IMG/VR virus record: IMGVR_UViG_3300023180_000036 | Coordinates: 1-64,000 of that record | DNA from: a virus | Reading direction: 5' to 3' (one strand) | Length of the DNA: 64,000 nucleotides | Shown: piece after piece, positions 1,830-63,747 of the stretch | Layout: each line of letters opens with the position of its first letter | Numbering within the stretch: position 1 is the first letter of the stretch | Program-made: the position numbers and the translations under genes | The notes under the pieces: generated by a model | Told to the model about the DNA's origin: nothing | Database searches by the model: none | What the model saw: the letters and a program-made list of their open reading frames with translations, nothing else

Positions 1830-1986
1830 TATTTCAACAGTATGTCCAACTCGAGGTCGACCATATTCGTGTGAAAAAATAGTTAAAAGTTGGATTAGGG
1901 CCACAAACAATTCTGAACTTATTATATACTTTCAAAATGATGATAATGAAGAAAATTTAAAAAAATATAGAGAATTAGTCAAATGA
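1822..1986 (+). pseudogene. N-terminal fragment of a family 2-type glycosyltransferase
   Basis: This 54-aa frame begins with STVCPTRGRPYSCEKIV, typical of the first strand and donor-binding loop of GT2-type enzymes. It stops after a second strand (ELIIYFQND), well before any DxD or catalytic region. It overlaps both neighbours by a few bases, so it may still be translated. It is most simply the remnant of a larger gene whose 3' part was replaced by the methyltransferase that follows. Confidence 0.5.
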
Positions 1987-4415: not shown

Positions 4416-4422
4416 AATAAAA

Positions 4423-7051: not shown

Positions 7052-7063
7052 ACTGGACAAAAC

Positions 7064-8422: not shown

Positions 8423-8423
8423 A

Positions 8424-9122: not shown

Positions 9123-9125
9123 TCT

Positions 9126-9263
9126 ATGTGGCTAGTAAGAGAAAAAATTAGTAAAAGTATTGTAGCAATGTGTTCTAGGCTTGTCGACGCTGAAGCTGTA
9201 GCGTGTAAAGGTTTAGAACACGAAAAATTATACATTGTTGAAAAATATAAGGATACAAAGTGA
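9126..9263 (+). CDS. Small hypothetical protein
   Basis: This 45-aa frame from ATG 9126 to TGA 9263 overlaps the GTG start of the GAPDH gene by 4 nt, the coupling seen across this island. No motif is recognised. Support is position and overlap only. Confidence 0.45.
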   Translation: MWLVREKISKSIVAMCSRLVDAEAVACKGLEHEKLYIVEKYKDTK

Positions 9264-11043: not shown

Positions 11044-11059
11044 GTAATTAGGAGATATT

Positions 11060-11269
11060 ATGAAACAAGATGAAGGCTTAAATTTAGATGTAACTGGTAA
11101 TGAACAGTATAGGAGAGAACTTATTGCTATTCAACAAGAAAATGAAATACTTAAAAAAAATATCAATGATTTACAGGGACAGCTACAATCCGCTTATTAC
11201 CGAATAAAAGTGTTAATAAGTGATTTAGAAAATATGAAAAGAATAGTAGACTTTAACGGAGTTGAATAA
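11060..11269 (+). CDS. Small coiled-coil hypothetical protein
   Basis: This 69-aa protein has a predicted heptad-rich helix through the central region (ELIAIQQENEILKKNI and following). A TTAGGAG ribosome site precedes ATG 11060. The stop overlaps the GT25 start. No family recognised. Confidence 0.6.
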   Translation: MKQDEGLNLDVTGNEQYRRELIAIQQENEILKKNINDLQGQLQSAYYRIKVLISDLENMKRIVDFNGVE

Positions 11270-11934
11270 TGAAAGCCTTTGTTATTTGTATTGACGAAAT
11301 AGAACAATCTGTGCAAGCAGCAGAAAGATGCATAAAATCTGGTGCTAGAAACGGTGTTCTTGTAGAAAAGTTTAAGGCTATTACTCCAGATAATGATTAT
11401 AAAAAAATACTTGAAGAAGATGGGATACCAGTTGATAAATTTGTTGAAGACAGTAACAAATATTCCAGATATGATAGAGTTATTTGTGCATTTTTATCTC
11501 ATTATTCATTATGGAAAGAATGTGCAAAACAAAGTAATAATTTTCTAATTTTAGAACACGATGCTTATTTTAATAATGTAATTACAGTAAATGCTAAGTA
11601 TCATACTGACGATGTGATTTCAGTTGGTGAACCATCTTATGGAAAATTTAATACTCCCAATTTCCTTGGTATAGGTCCTTTAACATCTAAAAGATATTTC
11701 CCGGGTGCTCACGCATATATTATATCACCAAAAGGTGCCAAGAAAGCAATTGAAAAAGCAAAAACTGATGCAGGACCTACTGATGTATTTTTTGGATATC
11801 ATAATTTTGATAATTTACAGGAAAGTTATCCTTGGCCTATATCAGTCAAAGAAAGTTTTAGCACTATTCAGAGAACACCAGGCTGTTTAGCTAAACACGC
11901 ATATAATGATGGAGTTGGTTATGGCATTATATAA
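11269..11934 (+). CDS. GT25-family glycosyltransferase
   Basis: This 221-aa protein has ICAFLSHYSLWKEC followed by FLILEHDAYF, the same motif order as the gene at 8424-9122 and as GT25 LPS enzymes. AHAYIISPKGAKKAI is the matching downstream element. It follows the aldolase and coiled-coil genes, so glycan genes flank the two glycolytic genes on both sides. Confidence 0.78.
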   Translation: MKAFVICIDEIEQSVQAAERCIKSGARNGVLVEKFKAITPDNDYKKILEEDGIPVDKFVEDSNKYSRYDRVICAFLSHYSLWKECAKQSNNFLILEHDAYFNNVITVNAKYHTDDVISVGEPSYGKFNTPNFLGIGPLTSKRYFPGAHAYIISPKGAKKAIEKAKTDAGPTDVFFGYHNFDNLQESYPWPISVKESFSTIQRTPGCLAKHAYNDGVGYGII

Positions 11935-12589
11935 TAAAGCCTTTGTAACAGGATGTGATGAAAGTCACGAATGGATGGTAGAATGGTTCCTTGATAATTT
12001 TAAAAAGCATAATAAATTACCCATAATCTTTGCAGATTTTGGTGTAAGTAAAAAATTTTTAAAATATGCAAAGAAAAACTTCGATTCAGTTATTGATATG
12101 ACAAAGATTAAAGATAAAGGTTGGTTTAAAAAACCTAAATCTATGATCGAAGCATCTAAACTTTCTTCGAGTATTTGTTGGATTGATACGGATATTGAAA
12201 TTTTAAAATCTATAGATGATGTTTTTATTTATGTTGAACCAAATAGACTTGCAATGGTAGAAGATAAACCCTGGACTAAAAGAAGGCGTGATTCAAGAGG
12301 ATTACAATACTATAATTCTGGAATAGTTGCATTTAAGGATTCTCCTGTTATATTACATCAATGGGCTAAAAAAGTAGAAAATTTTCCCCAACAAGGAGAT
12401 CAAGAAGTTTTGCATAGTATGATGGAATCTCCACTTAGTCAAAGAATATATATTTCAGATATACCAAATGAATATAATTGGTTAAGACTTCAATTAGAAC
12501 ATGACGGTCAAGATAGCAATAAAAAGAAAACTATTCATTGGACTGGCCCAAAAGGAAAAGAAAAAATAAAGAAAATGATGGGAATATAA
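11921..12589 (+). CDS. GT-A type glycosyltransferase
   Basis: This 222-aa protein is called from ATG 11921 because GGAG lies 7 nt upstream; an in-frame ATG at 11906 has no ribosome site. SSSICWIDTDIEIL provides a DxD (D89-D91). LQYYNSGIVAFKDS and a GDQEVLH segment resemble GT8-like or capsular glycosyltransferases. It overlaps the GT25 gene by 14 nt. Confidence 0.65.
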   Translation: MALYNKAFVTGCDESHEWMVEWFLDNFKKHNKLPIIFADFGVSKKFLKYAKKNFDSVIDMTKIKDKGWFKKPKSMIEASKLSSSICWIDTDIEILKSIDDVFIYVEPNRLAMVEDKPWTKRRRDSRGLQYYNSGIVAFKDSPVILHQWAKKVENFPQQGDQEVLHSMMESPLSQRIYISDIPNEYNWLRLQLEHDGQDSNKKKTIHWTGPKGKEKIKKMMGI

Positions 12590-13234
12590 ATGATTATACC
12601 AAGACCACCAAAACACACACTAGATGTGCCTGGATTTAATAATCAGATTCATTTAGAAAGTCTTGAAAAATTTACTAAAATTATTCCAGAAAATTCTAAA
12701 GTTCTTGAGATAGGTTGTGCTTTTGGTTGTAGTACTTGGGCTTTAATGAATGCATTGCCGAAAGGATGTAAATTACACGTATGTGATACTTTTGGAATGG
12801 ATAATCCGATGTTAAAACAACAACATTATAACGGTATTATGACTAAACATTCTCACAATCCGGCGGTAGTATATGCTCTAAGTTTATATATGGAAAAAAA
12901 TCATAGAGAAGTATTTGAATATTGTGTATCTCAACATCCTAGATACTTTGAGTTGCATAAAAAAACTCATGCCAAAAAGAGTCTTGAAGTTTTAGAAAAT
13001 GATAATAAATGGGATATGGTTTATATTGATGGACACCATGCTTATTCTACAGTTAAAAAGGAATTGAGTTATTTAAATGGAACTAAATATTTATGTGGAG
13101 ATGATTATCATCCAGTACACGAAGGTACTATGAAAGCAATAGATGAGTTTTTAGTGGATAATGAATATAATTTTGAACACGATGACTTTGAAACAGGATC
13201 TGGATTTTGGAAAATGGAATTAAAAAATGGGTGA
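12590..13234 (+). CDS. Class I SAM-dependent methyltransferase
   Basis: In this 214-aa protein, VLEIGCAFGCSTWAL is motif I and DMVYIDGHHAYSTVKKEL is the YIDG-H-Y segment typical of the Methyltransf_24 group, which often modifies sugars in surface clusters. It directly abuts the preceding gene. Substrate is unknown. Confidence 0.72.
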   Translation: MIIPRPPKHTLDVPGFNNQIHLESLEKFTKIIPENSKVLEIGCAFGCSTWALMNALPKGCKLHVCDTFGMDNPMLKQQHYNGIMTKHSHNPAVVYALSLYMEKNHREVFEYCVSQHPRYFELHKKTHAKKSLEVLENDNKWDMVYIDGHHAYSTVKKELSYLNGTKYLCGDDYHPVHEGTMKAIDEFLVDNEYNFEHDDFETGSGFWKMELKNG

Positions 13235-13901
13235 TGTAGCACATATTATTGGAAACGGAAAAAGTTCTGGATTTTATAAGCACGATAAAGGTTTAAAAAT
13301 AGCTTGTAATCTACCACCTTTTGAGGTTCAAAATCTTTATACTACCGTAATGGTTGATTTTAAAATGATGAATGCAATACATAAAAATCATATTACTGTT
13401 CCAGGTGATTGGGTTTTAGGTGCAAGACCGCATAAATGGATGGAAATGAAAAATGACTTTTATGTGAAATACTCAAAACAAATTAAAGAATTTTATCTTG
13501 TCTTACCTAAATATGCTGCTAATTATACAGACTTTAATTGTGGACATATGGCAACTCATTGGGTAGCAAATAAACTAAAGAGAAAAGAAATTCATATGTA
13601 TGGATTTGATTCAATCTTTGAGTTTGATACAACAAGTATGTCAGATACTTTTATGGAATCAGTAAGAGACAATCTTAATACACAAAGATTAACGTCTAAA
13701 TGGAGACCTATTTGGCATGGTATTTTTAATGAATTTAAAAATACACAGTTTGTTATATATCATGATGTAGGTAATGCACAAATTCCTCTTCCGAAAAATG
13801 TTGAAGTAAGAGACAACAATAAGGGAGTTAGAGCAGTACGAAAAAGAAATAAAGAATATAAGCCCGAACCATTTGATAAAACTAAACTTTCTAGTGCATA
13901 A
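13227..13901 (+). CDS. Uncharacterised protein with sialyltransferase-like (GT42/DUF115) features
   Basis: This 224-aa protein starts VAHIIGNGKSSGFY, like the nucleotide-binding GNGPSL loop of GT42 sialyltransferases and DUF115 proteins. About residue 108 it reads NCGHMATHWVANKLKRKEIHMYGFD, similar to the SG..A..LAxxLGxKEIxLxGxD region of those enzymes. The match is by eye only, and function remains open. Last gene of the island; an early-type promoter follows. Confidence 0.4.
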   Translation: MGDVAHIIGNGKSSGFYKHDKGLKIACNLPPFEVQNLYTTVMVDFKMMNAIHKNHITVPGDWVLGARPHKWMEMKNDFYVKYSKQIKEFYLVLPKYAANYTDFNCGHMATHWVANKLKRKEIHMYGFDSIFEFDTTSMSDTFMESVRDNLNTQRLTSKWRPIWHGIFNEFKNTQFVIYHDVGNAQIPLPKNVEVRDNNKGVRAVRKRNKEYKPEPFDKTKLSSA

Positions 13902-34285: not shown

Positions 34286-37200
34286 ATGTATGATTTAATA
34301 ACCTATACAACAAATAAAGGGCAAAGTGGAACACTAGATCCGTCTAGTTCGCCAAGTATTATAACAAGAACGATTGATTTTGATACAGTCTGGATTGATC
34401 TTTCTGTAGATTTAGAACAATCACCAAATCCAGAATATATTCGTGGTTGGTTTTTTGAACTTAATGAATTACCTGGATATAGTTTTTATCCAAATTCATC
34501 TGCAATTCAAACTGGATTAAATCCTCCAGAAAAAAGAATATTTACATCAAATCAGAAAATTAGATTATACATAGATTTAAATACTATGTTACAACTTGAT
34601 GGTTTAAGACCTCATGACTTTGTTTTATCTACAGTTGTTGCAACATCAGAAGAAAATTTAAAAAGAGGAAATTGGATAGAAACTAATCGTTCCGATTTAT
34701 TTTTTACCATATATGCAAATGGTAATCCTCCTGTGGAATTTTTGGATGTATTACCAGAAACTTTATTTGAATCAGATTTCGGAGAACCAACAAGAAGTCT
34801 TACTATAGACTCTGCCTATATTAATGGGATGAGGGTTGACTCTGCACATATTAGACACTTAGCATATGTAAATCTCTTAGAAGGCGATTCTGCTTATTTT
34901 ACTAATGTTACAACTAATAAAATATTAACAGATTTGTTATCTGCAAATATTAATAGTGATATATCTATTTTATCTAATCTTAATATAGATTCTAATAAAA
35001 TAATAGGTATAGGATCAGAAAATAGTGGTAATGTATTAGATTTAGACTATGATGAACCAACAGATAGAAATAATAGTATAGCTCTAACTTCAGTTCAATC
35101 TATTCATAATTTTTTAGATGTGAATAATAGTGAAGATAGTAATTATTGGGCTTTATATAATAATTTAAATGCATATAGTGATTCAATTAATAGAAATAAT
35201 GCAATATTTTTAATTGATGAAGATGGTACTGTTACAGCAAAAGCTATAAATGTAAATCAGTATATTTTAGACAGTGATGGATTAAAATGGTCTAATGATA
35301 GTAATGCAAGAATATATTATGATAGTAATTTAAAATTATGGAAAATAGAACCTGGTTTATTTGAGATAGTAGATTCAGAACAAATTATTGAAAATAATCC
35401 TCTTTTATCTATTATATCAACTGGGAGAGACGGTCAGTTTTTATCTTTTGCAGAATCAGCAGAATCTTATTATTTAGATTATGCATTAAAAACCGGAAGA
35501 TTTATAATAGATGAACAAACTTTGGCAGAGGAAAAAGATTATATTCCTGATACAGAATTAGAGTCTATGGATTCTAATGCTAAGTACATATATTATGATC
35601 GGTTTAGTAGATTTTCGCATCTTTATGATCAAGGAGTTACATTTCCACTTACTGATTCTGATGCTCAACTTTTAGATTCTGATGCTCAAGTTTTAAGATA
35701 TGATGAAACAACAAATTCAATATATGGCGATTTTGCTACAACGGCTTTTTCTGGAATTATATCTCCTAAAAGATATGATACTTATAGAGTAAAAGCAACG
35801 TTTAATTCAACCACACCTACTGATTTTCCTATATTTTTAGTAGTTGCTCAATTAAAAATACGGGGAAAAGAATATACAATTAGTGCGTTCAGAAGACCTA
35901 AAGGAACTTTACAAACTTATGGAGATTATTTAGAAACTGGACAAATAATTACAGAACCTCCTTCATGGGGTTTAGTTTATAATTTTGGTCAAAAAGATGC
36001 ATACTATTTTGATTTTGATTGGGTATCAAGAGGATCTGCACCGGCACCTGTTACACCAAATTTTGAAGGTGAAAGTACAAGCGATTGGGTTTCTTCTGGT
36101 CAGACAACTGTTTTTGCAGAAAAGGTTGGAAATGTAATAAGTGTTGTAACAAATCAGTTTGGTGATACTAATATTGAAAATTTTGAATTTAGAACTGGAA
36201 TTGAATTAGATATTGAAAAAGCAATTGCTAACGGCAAAACTTTTCTTGCACCATTTTTAAATGCAGAAACTTCTTATGGTTTTGGTGTTAAAGGGCAGAG
36301 TGGTGTTATTATATCAGATATAGCATTTGAAACAGAAGATCCTGAAAAGTATATATTTGATTTAAAAAATGATATAGTTTATACTTATATTTCCGAAAGA
36401 AATTTAACAGAAGGAAATTATCCTACAGTACCAGTTTTAGTTGAAAATGCGGGCTATTATGCTTTGGATAGTAGTGTTGGTGTTAGCGATATTATGAAAA
36501 CAGGAAGATTCTTTTATAATGAAAGAACTAAGACACTATTTTGGAAAGATCCAGATAATACATATAAACTTATACAGGAAGTAGATTTAAATAGAGACTT
36601 TTTAGGTAAATATATTGAACTAAGAGGCACAGGTTTAAATAATAATTCACCAGCATATCTTTATATTAATAATGAACCTGATTATTTTGAATTTGATGAA
36701 AATCCAATTTTTTTAAATGGTTACCATGGCCATGGTAGAGGTTTGAATCTCACTATATTTGGAAATGATGGTACTAAAATTTCTTCTAATACTTATGATA
36801 CTCATGGCGATTCTGCTAATTCCACATTACTAGCAGATGCTATAAACAATATGTCTAATGGTCAAATTGGAGCAATAACTTCTTATGACGCTTGGATTTC
36901 TAATGTAAATGATAAATTAAAAACTGCAGCATTAAGTCAAGGTTTAATGAAATTTTATAATGCACCAAAATTTCCAATTAGAAATCCCTATGCAGCAGTA
37001 TTTCAAAAAACTGGAAGCGAAACTCCTAGATCACATGAAACAACTTCTGGAGATTCATCACTATCACCACATGCAGATTTAAGTTTTCATATTACAAGAG
37101 GAACTTTCCATACTTATGGTCCAGAACAGCCAAATTCTTTATCGGCTTGGAATGGAAAAAAAGAAGCATGGATAGATGAAAACCATAATACAAAAATTAA

Positions 37201-40200
37201 TCAAACTCTTATGCTTACAGAAGGTAGACGTAAGGGCATGGCTTTTGAGGAAACTTCTTTTACTTCTACCGGTATTAATGAAGATAGTGCTAGAATATAT
37301 CTTACTTCAGAAGAAGATTCTCAAAGAACATTAGTTATCAGAGTTGGAGATGATTTAAATGATAAGATAGCATTTGAAGTTCCGGATATAGATGGTGTTT
37401 TACAGAACGGATTTATTAATTTTCATAGAGGAAATTTACATATAGTATATGATCAAACACCGCAATTAGGAGGTGATCTTGATGTACAAGACTTTAGAAT
37501 TTATAAAGATTCATTAGCATTTGAATTATTCGATCTAGGCTATTCTTTAGGTAAAGGCGATAATAGTATAGCTACAGCTTCACGTCAAAGCATCTTTAAT
37601 TTTATAGATAAAAATGATAATGAAACGGATAATTTTTTTGGTATCTTTTCAAATAAAGAACCACTAATAGAAGCAACTACTGTTAATGATGCAATATTTG
37701 CTGTTATGGAAGACGGTTCCGTTATATTTAATTTTGCTAATGCTGGAACAGGACCAACAGAAATAGGCGGATCAACAGGTAGACAGACTGGGCTAACAAC
37801 AGATGATGTACCAGAAGGACCTTCAGGATTAAATCTTTATTTTGATTCGGCAAGAGTTTTTCTTGCATTAAAATATGAAAATAATAATGCTAATACTTCA
37901 TATGATGCTAACGGCGGTGGTATAGGTAATATCACAGTAGATCAAGCAAATAAAACCCTTAAATTTGACGGCATTACTAATACTGACGGTTTGCCCGAAG
38001 GTTCTACTAATCTTTATTTTACTGATGAAAGAGCACAAGATGCAGTTGGTAGTATTATGTCTGGAGATGACGATATATCGGTTGTCTACGACGACGGAGC
38101 TAATACTATTGCAATAACATCAACACTTACTCAAGAAACAGTATTTGGATTACAGAGTAAGTATTCTTTAACTTCTGCAGGCGGTGGTGCATTAGGTCAA
38201 GTTAAATTAAACATTGACTCAAACGGAATTCAAAGAAGTGAAATAGTAAATATTAGAGGCACAAACGGAATTAATGTAAGTGGAGACTCAAATTATATTA
38301 CAGTCGATGCTTCAGATTTAGTAAAAAATTATAATATTTTAAGTGATAACTTATCTAATGGTGCAGAATTAATTTTAAGAGAAACGGATATTAATAATAA
38401 TGCAACAGATGATCAAGTAGCATTTATAGGAACTGAAGGTATTTCAATATCACAAACTAATGGTAATAGTATTACAATATCTGGAATTGATCTTCAAGCA
38501 GTAAGCAGAATAACAGCCACAGAAAACGGGAATCAAAAATTTATAACTTTAATTGATTCAAGTCCTGTTGCCGGAGTTACTACAACTAATTTATTAGTTA
38601 CTGGAGCAAATGGTTTAGAAGTTGATGTAGATAGTAATGGAGCCGGTACAACTACTCTTGATTTTAGTGCAGCTGCTTTACAAATTACTTCTACACTTCA
38701 AGCTGATAGTTATGAAAAAATTATTTTTACAGAAACTGATGCCGATGGAAACACTTCATCACAATTTATAAGATTTGTAGGTGATGGTGGTATGAGTATT
38801 ACCTCTAGAGGTCCACAAGGGACTGATGATGGACAAATAACTATAAGTGCAGCTAGTATGCACCACCCCAATACTACCTACGTAACTAATTTTGCAACAC
38901 CGATTTTAAATCCTACTAATATAGTCGATTTTAACTTAATACACGAAGGACCCGATAGTGGAGAAAATACAACACTAAAAATTAAATCTAAGGACGGAAT
39001 TTTAGTAGAAGAATCGAATGGTGAACTGGTTATTGGTGCAATAGTCCAGATTGAACAAATTAATAATGAAACAATATCTTTTGAAACTAATGGAGATAGT
39101 GGTATTTCTTTTGGTTCTACAACTTCATTTACTACAAATAGTTCAACATCAGAAACCATACAAGTTAATCATGGTGCTACAGGTTCTGGCACTACGGTTG
39201 CAACAAATAATAGTGGTCAAACAGTTATACAAAATATTACAGTTGATAAATTTGGTCATATACAATCTACAAGTAATGCTACAGTAGCAGGTCAATATTT
39301 AATGAGTGCAACTGATGCTAATAATGATCCGGTTATTAGATTAGATACTCAAGCTAATGGACAAAGTGGTTCTGCAGAAGATGTTATAATTGAAGGGCAG
39401 GGTGCGGTAAAAATTTCAGTTGGTACTGGTGGAACAGATAAAATTATAATAAGAGTTGATAGTAGTGATTTTGCAAATATAGCATTTAATGACTTAACTG
39501 ATGGTAATTCGACTAACACATCAAATAGTAATACTGGCCATGATGTAACTCTTGGAAATCTTAATCACGTAGGACATGTTCCTGCATGGGACGGGACAAA
39601 CTTTACAACGCGTAAACTAGCTTTCAACGGTCACGATATTACAGATCTGGATGTAGGTGGTGTGGCTTTTGAAGAAGTTTTAGCTTGGGTTGGACCAAAT
39701 TATCCTGTTGGTGGAGGTCAAAATGCTTGGAGAAATGCAGCTCTAAGCGATTTACTTGATATACCATCCAGTATTGATGATTTAAGTGATGTAGATACAA
39801 CTACAACAGCACCAACAAATGGTCAAGCACTAGTTTGGGATGGATCGAACTTTGTACCAGGTGATGTTGCAGCTTCGTTAGCTATGAATGATCTTACAGA
39901 TGTTAGCACATCAAGCATAACTGATGGTCAAGTTTTGATTTATCAAAGTTCATCTTCTAGCTTCATTCCGGGTGATGCAGGAAATACTTACACCGCAGGT
40001 GATGGATTGGATCTATCTGTAAGCAACGAATTTAGTTTAGATATTAAAGCAAACATGGGTTTGGTTATTGATAATACAGAGTTATCAATTGACACTACTG
40101 TTAAAACCGATAATATACAAGCTCAAACAGCAAGTTCTTCAGTTACATTATCAAACTCTGGTGGAAATACTAAGTTAGAAATTACAAATGATGGTGGCTT

Positions 40201-40552
40201 AAATTTAAACGGAACCCTTGCTAATACATTTACGGTAAGTGCAGCAGGTGCTGTTGTTGCAGCTGATGATATATCAGCATTTTCAGATGAAAGATTGAAG
40301 ACCGATGTTAAAACCATAGATAATGCATTATATCTTGTTAATAAATTAAGAGGTGTTTCATTTACTAAAAATAAAAAGAGTGGAATAGGCGTTATTGCTC
40401 AAGAGATAGAAAAAATAATACCTGAAGTTGTAAATACGGCAGAAGACGAAATGGGTACTAAATCTGTTGCTTATGGTAATTTAGTAGGTGTTCTTATTGA
40501 AGCTATAAAAGAACTTTCTGAAAAAGTTGAAAAACTTGAAAGGAAAATATAA
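34286..40552 (+). CDS. Giant tail fibre with C-terminal S74 chaperone domain
   Basis: This 2088-aa protein has a beta-rich N-terminal region (about 1-180) that may be the attachment domain. Long Asn/Asp/Ser-rich stretches follow with repeated phrases: TGLTTDDVPEG / GLPEGSTNLYFT, and LSDVDTTTTAPTNGQALVWDG / LTDVSTSSITDGQVLIY. The final ~90 residues are an intramolecular chaperone of Peptidase_S74 type. AFSDERLKTDVKTIDNAL has Ser2000 and Lys2005 of the self-cleavage dyad, and GVIAQEIEKIIPEVV follows. The chaperone would trimerise the fibre and then cut itself off. It is inserted between gp20 and the core genes and is read together with the adhesin that follows. Confidence 0.85.
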   Translation: MYDLITYTTNKGQSGTLDPSSSPSIITRTIDFDTVWIDLSVDLEQSPNPEYIRGWFFELNELPGYSFYPNSSAIQTGLNPPEKRIFTSNQKIRLYIDLNTMLQLDGLRPHDFVLSTVVATSEENLKRGNWIETNRSDLFFTIYANGNPPVEFLDVLPETLFESDFGEPTRSLTIDSAYINGMRVDSAHIRHLAYVNLLEGDSAYFTNVTTNKILTDLLSANINSDISILSNLNIDSNKIIGIGSENSGNVLDLDYDEPTDRNNSIALTSVQSIHNFLDVNNSEDSNYWALYNNLNAYSDSINRNNAIFLIDEDGTVTAKAINVNQYILDSDGLKWSNDSNARIYYDSNLKLWKIEPGLFEIVDSEQIIENNPLLSIISTGRDGQFLSFAESAESYYLDYALKTGRFIIDEQTLAEEKDYIPDTELESMDSNAKYIYYDRFSRFSHLYDQGVTFPLTDSDAQLLDSDAQVLRYDETTNSIYGDFATTAFSGIISPKRYDTYRVKATFNSTTPTDFPIFLVVAQLKIRGKEYTISAFRRPKGTLQTYGDYLETGQIITEPPSWGLVYNFGQKDAYYFDFDWVSRGSAPAPVTPNFEGESTSDWVSSGQTTVFAEKVGNVISVVTNQFGDTNIENFEFRTGIELDIEKAIANGKTFLAPFLNAETSYGFGVKGQSGVIISDIAFETEDPEKYIFDLKNDIVYTYISERNLTEGNYPTVPVLVENAGYYALDSSVGVSDIMKTGRFFYNERTKTLFWKDPDNTYKLIQEVDLNRDFLGKYIELRGTGLNNNSPAYLYINNEPDYFEFDENPIFLNGYHGHGRGLNLTIFGNDGTKISSNTYDTHGDSANSTLLADAINNMSNGQIGAITSYDAWISNVNDKLKTAALSQGLMKFYNAPKFPIRNPYAAVFQKTGSETPRSHETTSGDSSLSPHADLSFHITRGTFHTYGPEQPNSLSAWNGKKEAWIDENHNTKINQTLMLTEGRRKGMAFEETSFTSTGINEDSARIYLTSEEDSQRTLVIRVGDDLNDKIAFEVPDIDGVLQNGFINFHRGNLHIVYDQTPQLGGDLDVQDFRIYKDSLAFELFDLGYSLGKGDNSIATASRQSIFNFIDKNDNETDNFFGIFSNKEPLIEATTVNDAIFAVMEDGSVIFNFANAGTGPTEIGGSTGRQTGLTTDDVPEGPSGLNLYFDSARVFLALKYENNNANTSYDANGGGIGNITVDQANKTLKFDGITNTDGLPEGSTNLYFTDERAQDAVGSIMSGDDDISVVYDDGANTIAITSTLTQETVFGLQSKYSLTSAGGGALGQVKLNIDSNGIQRSEIVNIRGTNGINVSGDSNYITVDASDLVKNYNILSDNLSNGAELILRETDINNNATDDQVAFIGTEGISISQTNGNSITISGIDLQAVSRITATENGNQKFITLIDSSPVAGVTTTNLLVTGANGLEVDVDSNGAGTTTLDFSAAALQITSTLQADSYEKIIFTETDADGNTSSQFIRFVGDGGMSITSRGPQGTDDGQITISAASMHHPNTTYVTNFATPILNPTNIVDFNLIHEGPDSGENTTLKIKSKDGILVEESNGELVIGAIVQIEQINNETISFETNGDSGISFGSTTSFTTNSSTSETIQVNHGATGSGTTVATNNSGQTVIQNITVDKFGHIQSTSNATVAGQYLMSATDANNDPVIRLDTQANGQSGSAEDVIIEGQGAVKISVGTGGTDKIIIRVDSSDFANIAFNDLTDGNSTNTSNSNTGHDVTLGNLNHVGHVPAWDGTNFTTRKLAFNGHDITDLDVGGVAFEEVLAWVGPNYPVGGGQNAWRNAALSDLLDIPSSIDDLSDVDTTTTAPTNGQALVWDGSNFVPGDVAASLAMNDLTDVSTSSITDGQVLIYQSSSSSFIPGDAGNTYTAGDGLDLSVSNEFSLDIKANMGLVIDNTELSIDTTVKTDNIQAQTASSSVTLSNSGGNTKLEITNDGGLNLNGTLANTFTVSAAGAVVAADDISAFSDERLKTDVKTIDNALYLVNKLRGVSFTKNKKSGIGVIAQEIEKIIPEVVNTAEDEMGTKSVAYGNLVGVLIEAIKELSEKVEKLERKI

Positions 40553-50704: not shown

Positions 50705-50817
50705 TGCCAAAACGTGAAAAGATAAGCTGTTTATCAAAGAAATGGGAAAAAGCTTTTAAGAAAGCTGCCAAGAAAAAAGATAGACAAAAATCTAAAAAAG
50801 AAATAAGGCAGAGATAA
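50704..50817 (+). CDS. Small basic protein between gp47 and gp46
   Basis: This 37-aa, Lys/Arg-rich frame (MPKREKISCLSKKWEKAF) overlaps gp47 and gp46 by one base each, which argues that it is translated. T4 also has small frames near here. Function unknown; a nucleic-acid-binding role is plausible from charge. Confidence 0.5.
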   Translation: MPKREKISCLSKKWEKAFKKAAKKKDRQKSKKEIRQR

Positions 50818-52535
50818 TGATTATTTTTAAATCTATTCGATATAAAAACTTTTTATCGACAGGTAATAATTGGACAAATATTAGTCTTAATAAATCAAAA
50901 TCCACTCTTATAGTAGGGCAGAATGGTGCCGGAAAGTCAACAATTCTTGATGCTCTTTCTTTTGCTTTGTTTGGCAAGCCTCATCGTAATATTAATAAAC
51001 CACAATTGGTTAATACAATTAATAATAAAGATAGTATTGTAGAAGTAGAATTTATTATAGGAAAGTCTATTTTTAAAGTTGTTCGTGGTATTAAACCGCA
51101 AATATTTGAAATATGGAAAAATGGTGAGATGATTAATCAATCTTCTCATGCCAAGGAGTACCAGAAGATCCTTGAACAAAACATTATTAAGCTTAATCAT
51201 AAAAGCTTTCATCAAATTGTTGTGCTTGGTTCCTCTTCCTTTATTCCTTTCATGCAACTCCCTGCACAACATAGGAGAGATGTAATTGAGGATCTTCTGG
51301 ACATTAATGTTTTTTCAAAGATGAACATTCTCATAAAAGAAAAAAATAGTATTTTAAAAGAAAAGTTAAAAGATAATTCATATCAATTAGATATATTAAA
51401 TAACAAACTAGAATCTCAGAGAAAATATATCAGAGATATAACTCAAATAAATGAGGATGAGATTAATGATAAAAAAGAAAAAATATCCGAAGTACAAAAG
51501 AACATCGAAGGATTACACCATTCAAATGCCGAATTTTCGAGTTTTATTCAAGACTCTGCCGAAAACACAAGAGATGCACTTAAAGAAGCCAATGATGAGA
51601 AACAGTCCATTCTGCACGATAAGGCTACTGCGACATCAACCATTAAGTCAATTGTTAAAGAATCGAAATTTTATGAAAAGAATGATAACTGCCCGACGTG
51701 TTCGCAAGTCATAGATCCAGAACTTAAATCAAAAAAGATTGAAGAGTGTAAACATAATGCACTTGATATCAAAAAACAGATGGATTTACTTGAAGAAAAA
51801 AATAAAGAATTAACAGAAAGATTGGAATATTGGAATATACAAACAGAAAAAATTCGTGATTTTCAATCTAAGATAAATGGTAATAATCAAACCATAGAAT
51901 CTTTACTTTCTCAAATACAAAGTTTAAATAAGGATATTGAAAGATTAAGTTCCAGAGAAGGCGATATAGGTGAAGCCAACGAAGAACTTAATAATATGAT
52001 TGAAGAAAGAAATAATTTAATGGAATTTAAATTAGAACTTAATGAAGAATATTCTTATAATAATGTTATGGCAGAAATGCTTAAAGATACGGGTATTAAA
52101 ACTAAAGTCATTAAACAATACATACCTGTTATCAATAAACTCGTGAATCAATATCTTCAAGTTCTTGATTTCTTTGTTCATTTTAATTTAGATGAAAGTT
52201 TCCAAGAAACTATTAGATCCCGTCATAGAGATGCTTTTTCATATGATTCTTTTTCTGAAGGAGAAAAACAAAGAATAGATCTTGCATTATTATTTACTTG
52301 GCGCATGATAGCCAAAATGAAAAATTCTGTAGCCACTAATTTACTTATATTAGATGAAACTTTTGATTCATCTTTAGATCATGATGGTGTAGATAATCTT
52401 ATGAAAATCCTACATACTCTTGATGATGATACAAATGTTTTTGTTATATCTCATAAAGGAGAAATACTTGATGGAAAATTTGAAGAAAAGCTGGAGTTTA
52501 GAAAAGAGAAAAACTTCAGTAAGATGGTGGCATAA
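50817..52535 (+). CDS. 46: Recombination endonuclease subunit gp46 (SbcC/Rad50-like)
   Basis: This 572-aa protein has Walker A GQNGAGKS (34-41), a long coiled coil with zinc hook CPTCSQ near the middle, the signature FSEGEKQRIDLAL, and Walker B LLILDETFDSSLD. Complete; partner of gp47. Confidence 0.95.
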   Translation: MIIFKSIRYKNFLSTGNNWTNISLNKSKSTLIVGQNGAGKSTILDALSFALFGKPHRNINKPQLVNTINNKDSIVEVEFIIGKSIFKVVRGIKPQIFEIWKNGEMINQSSHAKEYQKILEQNIIKLNHKSFHQIVVLGSSSFIPFMQLPAQHRRDVIEDLLDINVFSKMNILIKEKNSILKEKLKDNSYQLDILNNKLESQRKYIRDITQINEDEINDKKEKISEVQKNIEGLHHSNAEFSSFIQDSAENTRDALKEANDEKQSILHDKATATSTIKSIVKESKFYEKNDNCPTCSQVIDPELKSKKIEECKHNALDIKKQMDLLEEKNKELTERLEYWNIQTEKIRDFQSKINGNNQTIESLLSQIQSLNKDIERLSSREGDIGEANEELNNMIEERNNLMEFKLELNEEYSYNNVMAEMLKDTGIKTKVIKQYIPVINKLVNQYLQVLDFFVHFNLDESFQETIRSRHRDAFSYDSFSEGEKQRIDLALLFTWRMIAKMKNSVATNLLILDETFDSSLDHDGVDNLMKILHTLDDDTNVFVISHKGEILDGKFEEKLEFRKEKNFSKMVA

Positions 52536-53734
52536 TGCCAAATATTGAAATAACAACCAAACCTACAGGTAGAAGCCCAGAAAATAAATATTTTTTAGGA
52601 GAAAAAACAAAACATCTTGATTTAACTAGACCCAAATATAATAAAATTGGAAATTTAGAAGATTATGAAGTAATGCGTATGAGAATGGATCTTATGGACT
52701 ATTCTCACAATCTTGTATTTTATACTGCCGGTTTATGTTTTCGTGTAGAAACTAATGATGATAGACACGCACAGTTTGTTCGTAATATGTTTCCAGTAGT
52801 AGATAATCCTTTACAATACACTGCCGATTGGACAATTATTCATAATACGGAAATGGTAGTTGATAAACCATATATCTATGTTAATTTAGATGAACATGTT
52901 ATGTTAATTTGTGGTACTACATTTTTAGGAGAAATTAAAAAAGGTATCTTTGGTATTATTAGTTTTGAATTACCAGAAAAAGATATTCTACCTATGCATT
53001 GTAGTGCATTTACATATAATGATACAACTAATCTTATGTTTGGATTAAGTGGTACTGGTAAAACCACATTAAGTAGTGATCCAGAATATAAACTAATTAG
53101 TGATGATGAAGTTTACTGGGATGATACTGGCATTCATATGGTAGAAACGGGCTGCTATGCTAAAAGTGAAGGTCTGACTCCAGAAACTCATCATACTATT
53201 TTTTATGCTGTTGAAGATGCTAGAAAAAAAGAATGTTTAGTAATAGAAAATCCTGGTGTATCAAATGCTAGATTAAGTTATCCTATAACTTCTGTTGAAA
53301 ATGCATATTATAGTAATGAAGATTTTGGTCACCCAGATAATATATTTTTCTTAACTATGGATGCAACTGGTACCTTTCCACCAGTATCTAAGATTGATGA
53401 TAAGGCAGTAAAGCGTTTCTTTGAAACGGGTTATACCAGTCAAATGCCAGGTACTGAAGCAGGATCTGAAGAAATAAAACCATTATTTAGCCCATGCTAT
53501 GGATCACCATTTATGCCGAGAGCAGTAAAAGAGTATAGTGATTTATTAATGAAAAAGGTTCGGAAACACGAATGTAATGTTTATTTAATCAACACTGGTA
53601 TGGATACTAATGGTAATAGATATGCTTTAGATTTTACTCGTAAAACAGTAAAGACTGCAATAGATATAGGTTATAGTATTAATAATGATATACCTAATAT
53701 GTTAGAAAAATTAATTGATAGATATGGAAAATAA
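52535..53734 (+). CDS. pckA: Phosphoenolpyruvate carboxykinase (ATP type), compact
   Basis: This 399-aa protein overlaps gp46 by one base. PEPCK converts oxaloacetate and ATP to phosphoenolpyruvate, CO2 and ADP. Motifs in order: TGRSPENKYF (substrate Arg13, as GRSPKDKY in E. coli), EIKKGIFG (Lys135-Lys136), MHCSAF (metal His), P-loop GLSGTGKT (170-177) and kinase-2 LISDDEVYW (Asp190-Asp191). Later come SNARLSYPI, NIFFLTMDATGTFPPVSK, GYTSQMPGTEAG and VYLINTGMD. All catalytic elements survive although it is about 130 residues shorter than cellular enzymes (about 530 aa). No tandem host flank is seen, so it is integrated as a phage gene in the replication operon. Confidence 0.92.
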   Translation: MPNIEITTKPTGRSPENKYFLGEKTKHLDLTRPKYNKIGNLEDYEVMRMRMDLMDYSHNLVFYTAGLCFRVETNDDRHAQFVRNMFPVVDNPLQYTADWTIIHNTEMVVDKPYIYVNLDEHVMLICGTTFLGEIKKGIFGIISFELPEKDILPMHCSAFTYNDTTNLMFGLSGTGKTTLSSDPEYKLISDDEVYWDDTGIHMVETGCYAKSEGLTPETHHTIFYAVEDARKKECLVIENPGVSNARLSYPITSVENAYYSNEDFGHPDNIFFLTMDATGTFPPVSKIDDKAVKRFFETGYTSQMPGTEAGSEEIKPLFSPCYGSPFMPRAVKEYSDLLMKKVRKHECNVYLINTGMDTNGNRYALDFTRKTVKTAIDIGYSINNDIPNMLEKLIDRYGK

Positions 53735-53766: not shown

Positions 53767-53799
53767 TAGCTATGTTTTATGAAATGGAGAAAAATTATA

Positions 53800-54474
53800 A
53801 TGGAACTTAGTGAATCAACACTTTCGGTGTTAAAGAATTATGCTTCAATAAATTCAAATTTAGTTATTAATGAAGGCAATACACTTCAAACTATCTCTGA
53901 AGCAAAAAATATTCTTTCTAAGGCTGAAATTAAGGAAACCTTTCCAAGAACATTTGGTATTTATGATCTAAATGAATTTTTGGGTGTCCTTGGTTTGGTA
54001 GATTCGCCACGGCTTAATTTTGAACAAGATTATGTTATTATTGGAGATTCTACTGGAAGATCAAAGATAAAATATTTTTATTCTGATACTGAAATATTAA
54101 CTTCTCCTTCAAAAGAAGTAAAAATGCCAGATACAGATATAAGGTTTACTCTTGACGGAGATACTTTAAATAAAGTAAAAAGAGCAGCATCTGCTCTTGG
54201 TCATGGTGAATTACATGTGAGACCTAGTGGATCAAGTGTAAGTTTAGTTGTTACATCAGGTGAAAATGCTACTGCAAATAGTTTTTCTATTGATGTGGAA
54301 GGTAGTTCTAACACTGATAAATACAATTTTATTTTTAATATTTCTAATTTAAAAATTGATCAAGGAGATTATGAAGTAGAAATTTCTTCAAAACTAATTT
54401 CTAAATTTACTAAAAGTACTGGTGATCTTATGTACTGGATTGCCCTTGAAAAGACATCAACATACGGAGAATAA
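53800..54474 (+). CDS. 45: Sliding clamp gp45
   Basis: This 224-aa protein is called from ATG 53800 with GGAGAAA upstream; the in-frame ATG at 53779 overlaps that ribosome site. ELSESTLSVLKNYASINSNL and FGIYDLNEFLGVLGLVD are typical gp45 segments; length is near T4 gp45 (228 aa). It tethers gp43 and activates late transcription with gp55. Confidence 0.93.
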   Translation: MELSESTLSVLKNYASINSNLVINEGNTLQTISEAKNILSKAEIKETFPRTFGIYDLNEFLGVLGLVDSPRLNFEQDYVIIGDSTGRSKIKYFYSDTEILTSPSKEVKMPDTDIRFTLDGDTLNKVKRAASALGHGELHVRPSGSSVSLVVTSGENATANSFSIDVEGSSNTDKYNFIFNISNLKIDQGDYEVEISSKLISKFTKSTGDLMYWIALEKTSTYGE

Positions 54475-55640: not shown

Positions 55641-56789
55641 ATGATTTTGGATAATGAATTAAAACTTGATTATAGTGATGTTTTAATTAGACCTAAAAGA
55701 AGCACACTCGGATCACGTAAAGAAGTAGATTTAAATAGAAAGTTTACTTTTGCTAATTTGGGTGGGGCTAGAGAAAGTTCATATGATTATGATGGTGTTC
55801 CTATCATGGCAGCTAATATGGACGGTGTTGGTACTATGGAAATGGCTGATGAATTAAGTGAGCATTATAATATGTTTACTTGTCTTGTTAAGACATATAG
55901 CGCCGAAGAACTTATAGATTTTTTTAATCCAAGAGTTGACTTACGAACAGAATTTGTTGCCATGAGTATTGGCATTACAAAAGCTGACAAAGAAAAGCTT
56001 GCTCAAGTTTATAACAAAACTCAAAGAAATCTGAAATATCTTTGTGTGGATGTGGCAAACGGATATAGTGAGCGTTTTGTGCAGTTTATTAAGTTTCTTA
56101 GAGAACATTATCCTTTTCTTGTAATTATTGCAGGTAATGTAGTTACTGCAGATCAAACACAGGAGTTAATCTTAAATGGCGCTGATATTGTTAAAGTTGG
56201 TATTGGTCCTGGTAGCGTATGCACTACTAGGATACAGACTGGAGTGGGATATCCGCAACTTAGTGCGGTTATCGAATGTGCAGACGCAGCACATGGATTG
56301 GGTGGCCATATCATTGCTGATGGTGGTTGTACTTGTCCTGGTGATGTTGCTAAAGCCTTTGCTGCTGGTGCCGACTTTGTAATGCTAGGCGGTATGCTTG
56401 CAGGACACGATGAAGGCGGCGGTGAAATAATTACTAAGTACTATCAAAGCAACGAACTAAGACCAGAACGTGATGATGGAATGAATGGAGAAATTCCTGA
56501 AAAAAATTGGTTTGAAGAAGTTATTAAAGAAAAGAAATTTGTTCAATTTTATGGTATGAGTAGTAAAGCTGCAAATGATAAACATTTTGGTGGTTTAAAG
56601 GAATATCGATCATCTGAAGGAAGAGAAGTTTTAATTCCATATCGTGGATCAGTTAAAAACACCACTCAAGATATATTGGGTGGTATTCGATCTACATGTA
56701 CATATGTAGGAGCAAGAAAATTAAAACAGCTAAGTAAGTGTACTACCTTTGTAAGATGTACAAATCAATTTAATAAAGTGTATGCTTAG
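55641..56789 (+). CDS. guaC: GMP reductase (GuaC type; IMPDH/GMPR family)
   Basis: This 382-aa protein catalyses NADPH-dependent GMP to IMP, returning guanine nucleotides to the adenine branch. [18 protein letters not shown] at the start, [20 protein letters not shown] and [20 protein letters not shown] (loop Cys) follow. Then come [21 protein letters not shown] and [12 protein letters not shown]; the QTGVGYPQ form is GMP reductase rather than IMP dehydrogenase. No CBS domains. Inserted between gp44 and gp62, genes that are normally adjacent. In an AT-rich phage it could tilt pools towards A. Confidence 0.88.
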
Positions 56790-60047: not shown

Positions 60048-62630
60048 TTGAATTCATTCTACACTTCAGTGAACCGTTATGGCAATTCCATTCTTTATCG
60101 TGGATATTCACCTAACGGTTCACCTATTAATCAACGCTATAAATTTAAACCAAAATTTTGGTTACCATCTAAAAATCCAACAGAGATAAAATCCTTTGAT
60201 GGTACGAATATTGCACCAGTCGAATTTGAAAAAATGAGCGATGCTAAAGAATTTCTTGAGCAATATTCGGAAATGGAAGGTGCAAAAATATATGGCACCC
60301 GTAATTATATTCATCAGTTTATTACAGAAAAATTTCCTGATGATATTAAATTTAATCCAAAAAATACAAATGTAGTTAATTTTGATATAGAAGTTGCTTC
60401 TGATGATGGTTTCCCTACACCAGAAGCTGCAGCTTATCCTATTATATCAATTGCGCTTAAATCTAGTAAATCTTCCATATATCAAGTATGGGGTTTAGAT
60501 AATTATGATCCGTCTAAAACTGAAATTAATTTAGATGGTGGACAAATCCAATATCATCAATTTAATTCAGAAGAAGCCATGATGGTTTCGTTTCTAACAT
60601 ACTGGACTAAAAATTATCCAGATATTATAACTGGCTGGAATACCAGATTTTTTGACATACCGTATCTCGTTAATCGGATCAAGATTATTGGAACACAGGA
60701 AGCTGCTAATAAATTATCACCGTGGAAACTTGTTAATGAAAGAAATACCACAATCATGGGTCGACCACAGGTTAACCATGAAATTGTTGGTATTCAACAA
60801 GCCGACTATCTTGAATTATTTAAAAAGTTTGGATACTCATATGGTACTCAAGAATCGTATAGATTAGATCATGTTGCAAATACGGTACTTGGAGAAAAGA
60901 AATTATCTTATGAAGAACATGGTAATCTTTATACTTTATATAAACAAGATCATCAAAAATTTATTGACTATAATATTAGAGATGTACAACTAATTGATAA
61001 AATGGATGCCAAGATGGGTCTTATTAATCTGGCTATGACTATGGCATATAGGGCTGGAACTAATTTATCTGATACTTTTGGCACGACTTCAATTTGGGAA
61101 TCTATCCTTTATCGCAGATTACTTTCTAAAAATATTGTTTCTCCTATTGAACAAATAAAAAGAGTTGCTTATGAAAATAATTCTAATCCCAATGTTATTG
61201 AAGGTGGTTATGTAAAAGATCCTCAAGTAGGAGCACACGATTGGGTAGTATCTTTTGATTTAAATTCTCTGTATCCAAATATTATTGTTCAATCTAACAT
61301 ATCACCGGAAACTATTATTCGCAATAAAACTTGGAGATTTTTCCCTCAAGGTGTTGATCATTATCTAAACGGAGAAGATAAAATTGATGAAGAATTTTCT
61401 GTTTGTGCTAGTGGTGTTCCTTTTTCAAGAGAAAAACAGGGTATTATTCCAGAACTTATTGTGGATTATTATTCAGAAAGAACACAAATAAAGAAGAAAA
61501 TGTTAGATGCAAAATCTCAGTATGAAAAAACAAAATCTTCATATCTCGAGTCTGAGATTAATCAGCTAGAAAATAATCAGATGGCAATTAAAATTTTGCT
61601 TAATTCTCTTTATGGTGCTCTTGCTAATAAACACTTTAAATATTTTGATAATGCTCTTGCTGAAAGCGTAACTTTAACTGGTCAGCTTTCGATCAAGTGG
61701 GCGGAAAGAGCAATAAATGAAGAAATGAATAAAATCTTAAAAACAGAAAATACCGATTATGTTATAGCAATTGATACTGATTCTGTTTATATTAATTTTG
61801 GTCCTCTTATTGAAAAATTAAATCCTAAAGATCCCGTAAAAGCCATTGATAAATTATGTAAAGACCACTTTGAAAAAATTATTGCTATGGCATATGATAA
61901 ACTATTTTACAGACTTAATGGTTATACTCCAAGAATGGAAATGGGTAGAGAAGTTATTGCAGATCGTGGAATATGGACTGCTAAAAAACGCTATATACTT
62001 AACGTACATAATAACGAAGGAGTACAATACGCAGAACCTAAACTAAAAATGATGGGTATAGAAGCAATTAAATCTTCAACACCTCAAGTTGTAAGAGATA
62101 AATTCAGAGAAATATTTAAGATTATTATTAGTAGCACAGAAACGGAAACACGTAATTATATTAATAATTTTAAATCTGAATTTAAATCTTTACCTCCAGA
62201 AGCGGTCGCTTTTCCTAGAGGTGTTTCAGATATTAATAAATTTTCACATAATAAAAATATTTATTGTAATTCTGCCCATTCTAAAAAATGGACAGAAGGT
62301 TCTAAACAAATAGATGTAAAAACAACACCTATTCATGTTCGTGGTGCTCTTTTATATAACTATCATGTAAAAGATAAAGCTTTAGATAAAAAGTATATTA
62401 TGATACAAAACGGAGAAAAAATTAAATTTACTTATATGAAACTTCCTAATCCTATTCGTGAAAATGTTATTTCTTTTCCAGATTATTTACCTGAAGAATT
62501 AAATTTACATAAATATGTGGACTATGATATGCAATTTGAAAAAACATTTATCGAACCTCTTAACCCTATACTTGAAGCTGTAGGGTGGTCGGTAAAAGAT
62601 GTTCAAACTTTGGAGGACTTTTTTGGATGA
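60048..62630 (+). CDS. 43: DNA polymerase gp43 (family B)
   Basis: This 860-aa protein starts at TTG, supported by GGAGG 8 nt upstream. 3'-5' exonuclease: NFDIEVASDDG (Asp113, Glu115), later GWNTRFFDIPYL and YNIRDVQLID. Polymerase motif A SFDLNSLYPNII, motif B KILLNSLYGALANKHFKYFD, motif C IAIDTDSVYI (Asp576, Asp578). Complete and unsplit, with no intein or intron. It overlaps the phosphomannomutase gene by 4 nt. Confidence 0.97.
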   Translation: MNSFYTSVNRYGNSILYRGYSPNGSPINQRYKFKPKFWLPSKNPTEIKSFDGTNIAPVEFEKMSDAKEFLEQYSEMEGAKIYGTRNYIHQFITEKFPDDIKFNPKNTNVVNFDIEVASDDGFPTPEAAAYPIISIALKSSKSSIYQVWGLDNYDPSKTEINLDGGQIQYHQFNSEEAMMVSFLTYWTKNYPDIITGWNTRFFDIPYLVNRIKIIGTQEAANKLSPWKLVNERNTTIMGRPQVNHEIVGIQQADYLELFKKFGYSYGTQESYRLDHVANTVLGEKKLSYEEHGNLYTLYKQDHQKFIDYNIRDVQLIDKMDAKMGLINLAMTMAYRAGTNLSDTFGTTSIWESILYRRLLSKNIVSPIEQIKRVAYENNSNPNVIEGGYVKDPQVGAHDWVVSFDLNSLYPNIIVQSNISPETIIRNKTWRFFPQGVDHYLNGEDKIDEEFSVCASGVPFSREKQGIIPELIVDYYSERTQIKKKMLDAKSQYEKTKSSYLESEINQLENNQMAIKILLNSLYGALANKHFKYFDNALAESVTLTGQLSIKWAERAINEEMNKILKTENTDYVIAIDTDSVYINFGPLIEKLNPKDPVKAIDKLCKDHFEKIIAMAYDKLFYRLNGYTPRMEMGREVIADRGIWTAKKRYILNVHNNEGVQYAEPKLKMMGIEAIKSSTPQVVRDKFREIFKIIISSTETETRNYINNFKSEFKSLPPEAVAFPRGVSDINKFSHNKNIYCNSAHSKKWTEGSKQIDVKTTPIHVRGALLYNYHVKDKALDKKYIMIQNGEKIKFTYMKLPNPIRENVISFPDYLPEELNLHKYVDYDMQFEKTFIEPLNPILEAVGWSVKDVQTLEDFFG

Positions 62631-63358
62631 TTAATTATGTTTTTGATGTGGATGGAACTCTTACACCCAGTAGAATGAAAATGGATAAAGAGTTTCAAAA
62701 ATTCTTTTTAGAATTTATAGAAAAAAACAACGTCTATCTTGTTACGGGTTCAGATTATATAAAAACGGTCGAACAGGTTGGTAAAGAGATATGTGAAAAA
62801 GTTATTAAATGCTATAACTGTTGCGGCAATAGTATTTGGCAGAATGGAGAAGAAATTTATAAGTCTGATTGGAAACTTTCAGAAGAAATTGTGGATTGGC
62901 TAAAAAAAGAATTAAAGAATAGTAAATTTAGTATAAGGACTGGAAATCATATAGAACAGAGACCAGGCTTGGTAAATTTTAGTATTCTTGGTAGAAATGC
63001 TTCTTTTGAAGAAAGATTCATATATACACAATGGGACGATCAAATAGATGAAAGAATAACAATTGCCAAAAAATTCAATCAGAGGTTTTCCTACTATAAA
63101 GCACAAGTTGCAGGAGAAACCGGAATTGATATTACTCAAATAGGAAATGATAAAAGTCAAGTTGCAAATCATATAGATGGTCCTATTGTATTTTTTGGTG
63201 ATAAAATGAAAGCCGGTGGCAATGATTATCCTTTAGCATTAGAAGTTAAAATGAGACCAGACTCTTGGAATCATGAAGTAAAAGACTGGAAAGAAACATA
63301 TAAAATATTAACTAATTTATCATATAAAGGTTTACAAAAAGTCGAATATAATGTATAA
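62627..63358 (+). CDS. Phosphomannomutase (eukaryotic-type, HAD superfamily)
   Basis: This 243-aa protein is called from ATG 62627 (GGAGG upstream, ATGA overlap with gp43). VFDVDGTLTPSRMKMD is HAD motif I. YLVTGSDYIKTVEQVG, IRTGNHIEQRPGLVNFSILG, ITQIGNDKSQVANHI and VFFGDKMKAGGNDYPLA follow in the order of eukaryotic PMM. Converts mannose-6-P to mannose-1-P for GDP-mannose. It could supply the glycan island at the window start. Confidence 0.88.
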   Translation: MINYVFDVDGTLTPSRMKMDKEFQKFFLEFIEKNNVYLVTGSDYIKTVEQVGKEICEKVIKCYNCCGNSIWQNGEEIYKSDWKLSEEIVDWLKKELKNSKFSIRTGNHIEQRPGLVNFSILGRNASFEERFIYTQWDDQIDERITIAKKFNQRFSYYKAQVAGETGIDITQIGNDKSQVANHIDGPIVFFGDKMKAGGNDYPLALEVKMRPDSWNHEVKDWKETYKILTNLSYKGLQKVEYNV

Positions 63359-63387: not shown

Positions 63388-63747
63388 ATGAGTAAAGCAG
63401 GAAAAGTGTGGGGTGTAACAGAACTTATTGAAGCGAATGGTTCTTTAGAGTTTCATCGTATTCAAATGAATAAAGGAGGTGTTTGTTCTAAACATCTTCA
63501 TGAGTTTAAATGGAATGGGTTCTATGTCGAAAAAGGTGTAATGTTGGTTCGTGTCTGGCAGAAGGATTATGATCTTGTGGACGAAACTATTTTATATGAA
63601 GGAGATTATACAAAAGTCAAACCAGGTCTTTATCATCAGTTTGAATGCCTAGAGTCCGGTGTTGCTTACGAACTCTATTGGGCTGAGTTTAATCATAACG
63701 ATATTGTAAGAGAAACTGTAGGGTATAATGAAAAAAATAAAAAGTAA
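63388..63747 (+). CDS. Cupin-domain protein, sugar-phosphate isomerase-like
   Basis: This 119-aa single cupin has IQMNKGGVCSKHLHEFKWNGFYVEKG, supplying the His-x-His...Glu metal site (HLH), and a second motif PGLYHQFECLESG. Like the C-terminal cupin of type II mannose-6-phosphate isomerase. Next to PMM this suggests mannose metabolism, though single cupins have many roles. Confidence 0.6.
   Translation: MSKAGKVWGVTELIEANGSLEFHRIQMNKGGVCSKHLHEFKWNGFYVEKGVMLVRVWQKDYDLVDETILYEGDYTKVKPGLYHQFECLESGVAYELYWAEFNHNDIVRETVGYNEKNKK

Follow-up and report, generated by a model that had tools for sequence, protein, structure and literature searches.

A compact ATP-type phosphoenolpyruvate carboxykinase in marine viruses and its possible transfer to an alphaproteobacterial lineage

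Why does a virus carry a gene of central carbon metabolism between gp46 and gp45, does that gene encode a working enzyme, and where did it come from? We define "the window" as the whole stretch of 64,000 nucleotides that was analysed, part of an 82,462-base virus fragment. An open reading frame of the window with an ATG start and 399 codons matches phosphoenolpyruvate carboxykinase (PEPCK). The genes that flank it (gp47, gp46, gp45 and gp44, by Pfam and PHROG) are virus genes, so a metabolic gene of host type lies within a virus genome. Together with gp43, these neighbours show that the virus is T4-like. The gene and its immediate surroundings are as follows.

50817-52535, + strand: gp46 recombination nuclease subunit (phrog_77, E = 6.9e-168)
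52535-53734, + strand: compact ATP-type PEPCK, 399 aa (PF01293; AlphaFold/PDB; compact relatives)
53779-54474, + strand: gp45 sliding clamp (PF09116, phrog_223)

The gp46 stop codon and the PEPCK start codon share exactly one base (GCATAATGCC; TAA at 52533-52535 and ATG at 52535, giving TAATG), and 44 bases lie between the end of the PEPCK gene and the start of gp45. The first-pass annotation had called the gene fused to gp46 by a one-base overlap; the overlap is real, but it is an overlap and not a fusion. An IMPDH/GMP-reductase family gene (55641-56789; PF00478, phrog_9582) lies between gp44 and gp43; close relatives, L005 and L008 among them, were not found to have it there. Elsewhere in the window, positions 34286-40552 form a single 2088-aa open reading frame in the structural region.

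The sole Pfam family on the open reading frame is PF01293, PEPCK_ATP, with an E value of 4.7e-92 and 309.6 bits against a curated cut-off of 26.5 bits; the alignment covers profile positions 34-437 of 465. No GTP-type PEPCK was matched in Pfam, and the fold similarity to GTP enzymes is far weaker. The protein has no PHROG match and scores below every NCBIfam PEPCK cut-off (261.6 versus 590 for the pckA equivalog TIGR00224, and at best 300.5 versus 636 for the PRK09344 subfamilies). As had been estimated, it is about 130 residues shorter than cellular enzymes: 141 fewer than E. coli PckA (540 aa) and 130 fewer than the Thermus enzyme (529 aa).

The residues expected of an active enzyme are retained. 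In E. coli numbering, the window protein has R65, K212, K213, H232, G248-T256, D268, D269, R333, R449 and T455, and so does each of the 50 compact representatives in an alignment with 39 long rows. The initial claim of an ATP-type PEPCK with all active-site motifs agrees with these counts, with the PF01293 match and with the fold described below. The principal positions in the window are these.

52571-52573, + strand: Arg13, equivalent to E. coli Arg65, substrate-binding (invariant in 50/50 compact and 39/39 long rows)
52922-52924, + strand: Phe130, aligned with E. coli Tyr207, the compact-subfamily signature (Phe in 50/50 compact, Tyr in 39/39 long rows)
52937-52942, + strand: Lys135-Lys136, equivalent to E. 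coli Lys212-Lys213, metal/phosphoryl site (invariant)
53042-53068, + strand: P-loop GLSGTGKTT, residues 170-178 (invariant in compact rows)
53102-53107, + strand: Asp190-Asp191, equivalent to E. coli Asp268-Asp269, metal ligand (invariant)

Two positions that are invariant in the long rows are changed in every compact row, with Phe replacing Tyr207 and His replacing Glu297; the Phe is also seen in a motif count made on 73 unique compact proteins. E297H, I290E and G283T are changed in all or nearly all compact members; among nucleotide-related positions, R449 and T455 are retained while E297 is His in every compact row. Because these substitutions accompany a very long subfamily stem, nucleotide choice or kinetics may differ from those of the long enzymes. 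Among the best fold matches is structure 6at3, by its title an E. coli Y207F mutant crystallised with oxaloacetate, and since oxaloacetate is bound there, Phe at this position is compatible with substrate binding and is not disqualifying. A search of open-access text for Tyr207 mutants found nothing.

The alignment indicates that about 139 residues of E. coli PckA are absent from the compact form, mostly from both termini and from loops: segments 6-55, 85-90, 124-131, 178-186, 316-324, 480-491 and 500-540, the remainder being residues 1-2 and isolated positions. The AlphaFold model of the window protein has a pLDDT of 84.9 and a pTM of 0.87, with residues 301-314 as the sole low-confidence stretch, and its top 35 PDB matches are all ATP-PEPCKs (TM 0.79-0.84 by query length). 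The structure prediction that had been proposed gives a PEPCK fold. The possibility raised at the outset that the protein is a different P-loop kinase is very unlikely, as that fold comes with invariant substrate, metal and nucleotide residues. The compact form shares with cellular ATP-type PckA (PF01293; structures from E. coli, Thermus and Anaerobiospirillum) its fold, P-loop, metal and substrate residues and most of its alignable length, at about 27-35% identity to solved structures; it differs in the missing segments, in Phe207 and His297 throughout, and in falling under the pckA cut-offs.

The gene is not peculiar to one virus. A scan of IMG/VR with the window protein gave 53 loci, and wider and partner-seeded scans brought the total to no fewer than 74 distinct viral sequences of the gene, in several genome positions; 73 distinct compact proteins were counted among the relatives. 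Full-length copies have 393-412 aa, apart from a single one of 429 aa, and in one contig the gene is frameshifted (L046, 8001-9232), through either an assembly error or decay to a pseudogene. Estimates of dN/dS were 0.14-0.17 for the window gene against three relatives (L004, L013 and L019) and 0.06 between L004 and L013, indicating that the viral compact gene is under purifying selection. Judged from these comparisons, compact ATP-type PEPCK is a distinct subfamily. The suggestion that it is a distinct viral subfamily is correct as to distinctness but not as to being purely viral, as five alphaproteobacterial genomes also have the compact gene.

No isolate phage record had a compact PEPCK; matches in the phage collection reach at most about 36% identity and are host-type genes or come from one huge phage. 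Matches in Staphylococcus phage UPMK_1 and in Salmonella and E. coli "phage" records were set aside as host DNA, because they are host-type pckA amid host-type genes (partial records, bacterial contigs) or short unannotated records. Compact copies in Neomarinimicrobiota (L060) and Flavobacteriales (L061) metagenome-assembled genomes were rejected as cellular and are read as mis-binned virus, since their contexts are virus-like and both assemblies own a full-length PEPCK. The former lies on a 335 kb contig (PBPT01000016.1), near an HNH-type gene common to L023-L025; this contig may belong to a large virus that was binned with a bacterial genome.

Several virus-borne PEPCKs were already known: those of giant viruses, one full-length huge-phage enzyme, and the pckA of one survey. 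The giant-virus proteins (Catovirus and Klosneuvirus) are likewise ATP-PEPCKs but differ in size (480 and 788 aa models), in having eukaryotic hosts, and in sequence (about 30% and 16% identity). PEPCK in Mimiviridae has been viewed as possible gluconeogenesis (PMC9270025), and pckA and aldolase appear, as list-level annotation, among viral auxiliary metabolic and carbon genes of hadal trench sediments (PMC12448302). The 636-kb uncultured phage record LR756504.1 also has an ATP-PEPCK, flanked by virion-like genes. That gene (L056, 7854-9428) is full-length at 524 aa and keeps Tyr207, and because it groups with a Flavobacteriales enzyme it is taken as an independent acquisition. Searches confined to open-access literature turned up no description of the compact subfamily, the Phe signature, the gene linkage or a cellular counterpart. 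Below the NCBIfam cut-offs, without a PHROG family and absent from isolate phage records, the compact gene is easy to overlook.

Placement varies among the viruses. A search for the same insertion elsewhere recovered one IMG/VR group with the order gp46-PEPCK-gp45 and the same one-base overlap, and nearly all other gp46-linked relatives share the -3 spacing. In other viruses PEPCK follows gp43 or has no T4-type genes close by, so that the insertion between gp46 and gp45, correctly noted for the window, is one of several placements.

The window itself contains two further genes of sugar-phosphate metabolism, as had been claimed, about 42 kb from PEPCK and overlapping each other by 4 bases, and two more genes with homologues near PEPCK in other viruses.

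9260-10234, + strand: type I GAPDH with INAS replacing IND, an NADP-type, GapB-like signature (PF02800/PF00044; TIGR01534 over cut-off; 8wwz alignment)
10231-11043, + strand: compact class I fructose-bisphosphate aldolase, 270 aa (PF00274 just over cut-off; NF003784 E = 5e-74, under cut-off)
62585-63358, + strand: HAD/PMM-type phosphatase (PF03332; homologue near PEPCK in 23/74 viral loci)
63388-63747, + strand: cupin-like protein (PF07883 slightly under cut-off; homologue in the kdsA-PEPCK-kdsB run of L030)

By eye, the GAPDH-aldolase pair sits in the middle of a cluster (262-13901) of apparent glycosyltransferase and methyltransferase genes that also includes an apparent cytidylyltransferase and sugar epimerase.

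In the fetched flanks of the 74 distinct PEPCK sequences, aldolase was found at 24, GAPDH at 12, kdsA at 16, kdsB at 12 and PRPP synthetase at seven. At least one of aldolase, GAPDH, kdsA and kdsB was present in 41 of these flanks, and 33 had none of the four. As a control, 75 contigs that were seeded with gp43 and lack PEPCK (858 kb in all), and that cover one neighbourhood and not random positions, gave aldolase 1, GAPDH 0, kdsA 0 and kdsB 1. Among 20 larger, mostly fragmentary records, aldolase occurred in only 11 and GAPDH in 6. The arrangements differ from virus to virus: aldolase, GAPDH and PEPCK are contiguous in L023-L025 (the upstream genes of L023 were identified by clustering), aldolase follows PEPCK by about 30 bases in L019-L021, PRPP synthetase, aldolase, PEPCK and GAPDH lie inside about 9.5 kb in L026, and L030 has the order kdsA, PEPCK, kdsB, cupin, HAD phosphatase, cytidylyltransferase. 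The many differing gene orders suggest repeated assembly, not one inherited block. In three contigs (L235, L237 and L238) a viral aldolase is followed by kdsA and kdsB, with no PEPCK in the fetched stretch; aldolase, like PEPCK, is thus associated with KDO genes in its own right.

Other genes seen by eye near PEPCK include an S-adenosylmethionine synthetase-like gene (L035, 6911-7999) and an AIR synthetase (purM)-like gene (L037, 4008-4868), both just upstream of it. L030 encodes a small secreted, pseudoazurin-like cupredoxin (3255-3686), an unusual cargo near gp43. In L026 an iron-sulfur-related run (566-2256; SufT/MIP18-like protein, ferredoxin and A-type carrier) directly precedes PRPP synthetase, aldolase and PEPCK.

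The partner genes bear on the direction of flux. All full viral GAPDHs listed have INAS or INAT where the Brucella-type enzyme has IND. The window GAPDH aligns at INAS with its second-best PDB match, the GAPDH-2 structure 8wwz, which we take to be Bacillus subtilis GapB, an NADP-dependent anabolic enzyme; GapB has INAS at the coenzyme site as the viral protein does, and the viral protein is somewhat shorter. This motif points to probable NADP use by the viral GAPDHs. The aldolase keeps the class I catalytic-site motifs, which are also present in relatives. The KdsA next to PEPCK scores over the NCBIfam cut-off for 3-deoxy-8-phosphooctulonate synthase, an enzyme that joins PEP to arabinose-5-phosphate. 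With an NADP-type GAPDH, an aldolase and kdsA as partners, PEP formation and anabolic flow seem favoured. The original proposal of a gluconeogenic flow gains from the linkage to aldolase, GAPDH and PRPP synthetase, but needs widening: where kdsA is adjacent, PEP may feed KDO synthesis besides gluconeogenesis.

We consider it probable that the window gene encodes a working, streamlined ATP-dependent PEPCK that forms PEP and feeds gluconeogenic or anabolic flow in infection. The compact enzyme would convert oxaloacetate and ATP to PEP, CO2 and ADP, and the PEP would pass up the host's lower gluconeogenic path. The viral GAPDH, probably using NADPH, and the aldolase, which this virus and many of its gene relatives encode, would then help move carbon from triose phosphates into hexose and pentose phosphates for nucleotide synthesis, a step to which the linked PRPP synthetase of seven relatives would belong; in some relatives PEP could also enter KDO synthesis through the neighbouring kdsA. 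Against this reading count the very long stem with its subfamily-wide substitutions, the 42 kb that separate PEPCK from GAPDH and aldolase in the window, and the 33 loci with none of the four partners in the fetched flank.

Other functions can be weighed against the same evidence. The frequency of kdsA and kdsB, often adjacent to PEPCK, and the aldolase-kdsA-kdsB runs with no PEPCK in the fetched stretch would fit a narrow role, the supply of PEP for KDO or a related sugar acid that modifies the host surface or virion, in place of general gluconeogenesis. We think this unlikely, as neither kdsA nor kdsB was found in the 82 kb of the window's own virus and in other viruses the partners of PEPCK are instead GAPDH, aldolase and PRPP synthetase. 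ATP-PEPCKs are reversible, and carboxylating bacteria, Actinobacillus and Anaerobiospirillum among them, are the source of some homologues of solved structure, so the enzyme might run from PEP, CO2 and ADP to oxaloacetate and ATP for aspartate and pyrimidine synthesis. An adjoining KdsA that consumes PEP, partners that fit the anabolic direction and the Phe at position 207 in every member make that a decidedly poor prospect. Least probable is that the protein has become a kinase or binding protein and is no longer a PEPCK. The long stem, the loss of about 139 residues, the subfamily-wide Y207F, E297H and G283T and the sub-threshold NCBIfam scores could be read in that way, but the invariant active site, the predicted fold and the cellular genomes considered next, in which the compact gene is the only PEPCK detected and lies at the pckA place of their relatives, make it very doubtful.

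When bacterial and archaeal genomes were scanned, the compact gene turned up in five alphaproteobacterial single-cell or metagenome genomes (L062-L066), all of one marine lineage, at 64-65% identity to the window protein. No second PEPCK was detected in these incomplete genomes. In L062 and L066, where the context was read, the gene is chromosomal, beside hprK, rapZ, 3-hydroxyacyl-CoA dehydrogenase and acyl-CoA dehydrogenase (hprK and rapZ were called by NCBIfam, hprK under its cut-off). Gene order suggests that the lineage belongs to the Rhodobacterales. All 150 genomes sampled from the same order have a PEPCK, and G001 alone among them aligns with the compact query along its length. A full-length pckA follows hprK-chvG-chvI in the corresponding neighbourhood of G411. 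The closest sister genomes, at 71% ParC identity, have no gene in this slot and carry an ordinary 534-aa pckA at another site, in several of them near urease genes.

The phylogeny that had been called for separates compact from long PEPCKs, with a very long branch between the two groups. In the unrooted tree the cellular compact copies fall inside one viral subgroup (branches 99/93 and 100/100), which favours transfer from virus to cell. The cellular copies are also at least 94% identical to each other, whereas viral copies range down to 61-63% identity with the window protein. The opposite history, in which the lineage's own pckA decayed to the compact form and was then taken by viruses, is a less likely origin that still deserves weight. 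The compact copy occupies the ancestral pckA slot, a root with cells outside all viruses was not rejected (p-AU 0.24), and neither was a tree that attaches the compact clade to that order's own long pckA (p-AU 0.63). Against it stand the nesting of the cellular copies, their shallow diversity and the ordinary gene kept by the sister lineage. The AU tests do not settle the root, and on these sequence comparisons we lean toward virus-to-cell transfer. Our tentative view of the whole, held at a little under even confidence, is that a gluconeogenesis/PEP module, made up of compact PEPCK, NADP-type GAPDH, compact aldolase and kdsA/kdsB, came together repeatedly in several marine phage lineages, and that a virus-evolved minimal PEPCK passed to a marine alphaproteobacterial lineage and replaced its own pckA at the ancestral locus.

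The best known carbon strategy of phages is that of the cyanophages, which drive the sugar phosphates of their photosynthetic hosts through the pentose phosphate pathway. If the proposed role is correct, PEPCK, NADP-type GAPDH and aldolase would provide its counterpart for heterotrophs living on organic acids, turning TCA-cycle carbon into sugars and nucleotides. The missing segments pose the question of how small an ATP-PEPCK can be, and the alphaproteobacterial lineage is a natural test of whether the compact enzyme functions. If the transfer occurred as we suggest, a central-metabolism enzyme of a cell would have been swapped for a viral version.
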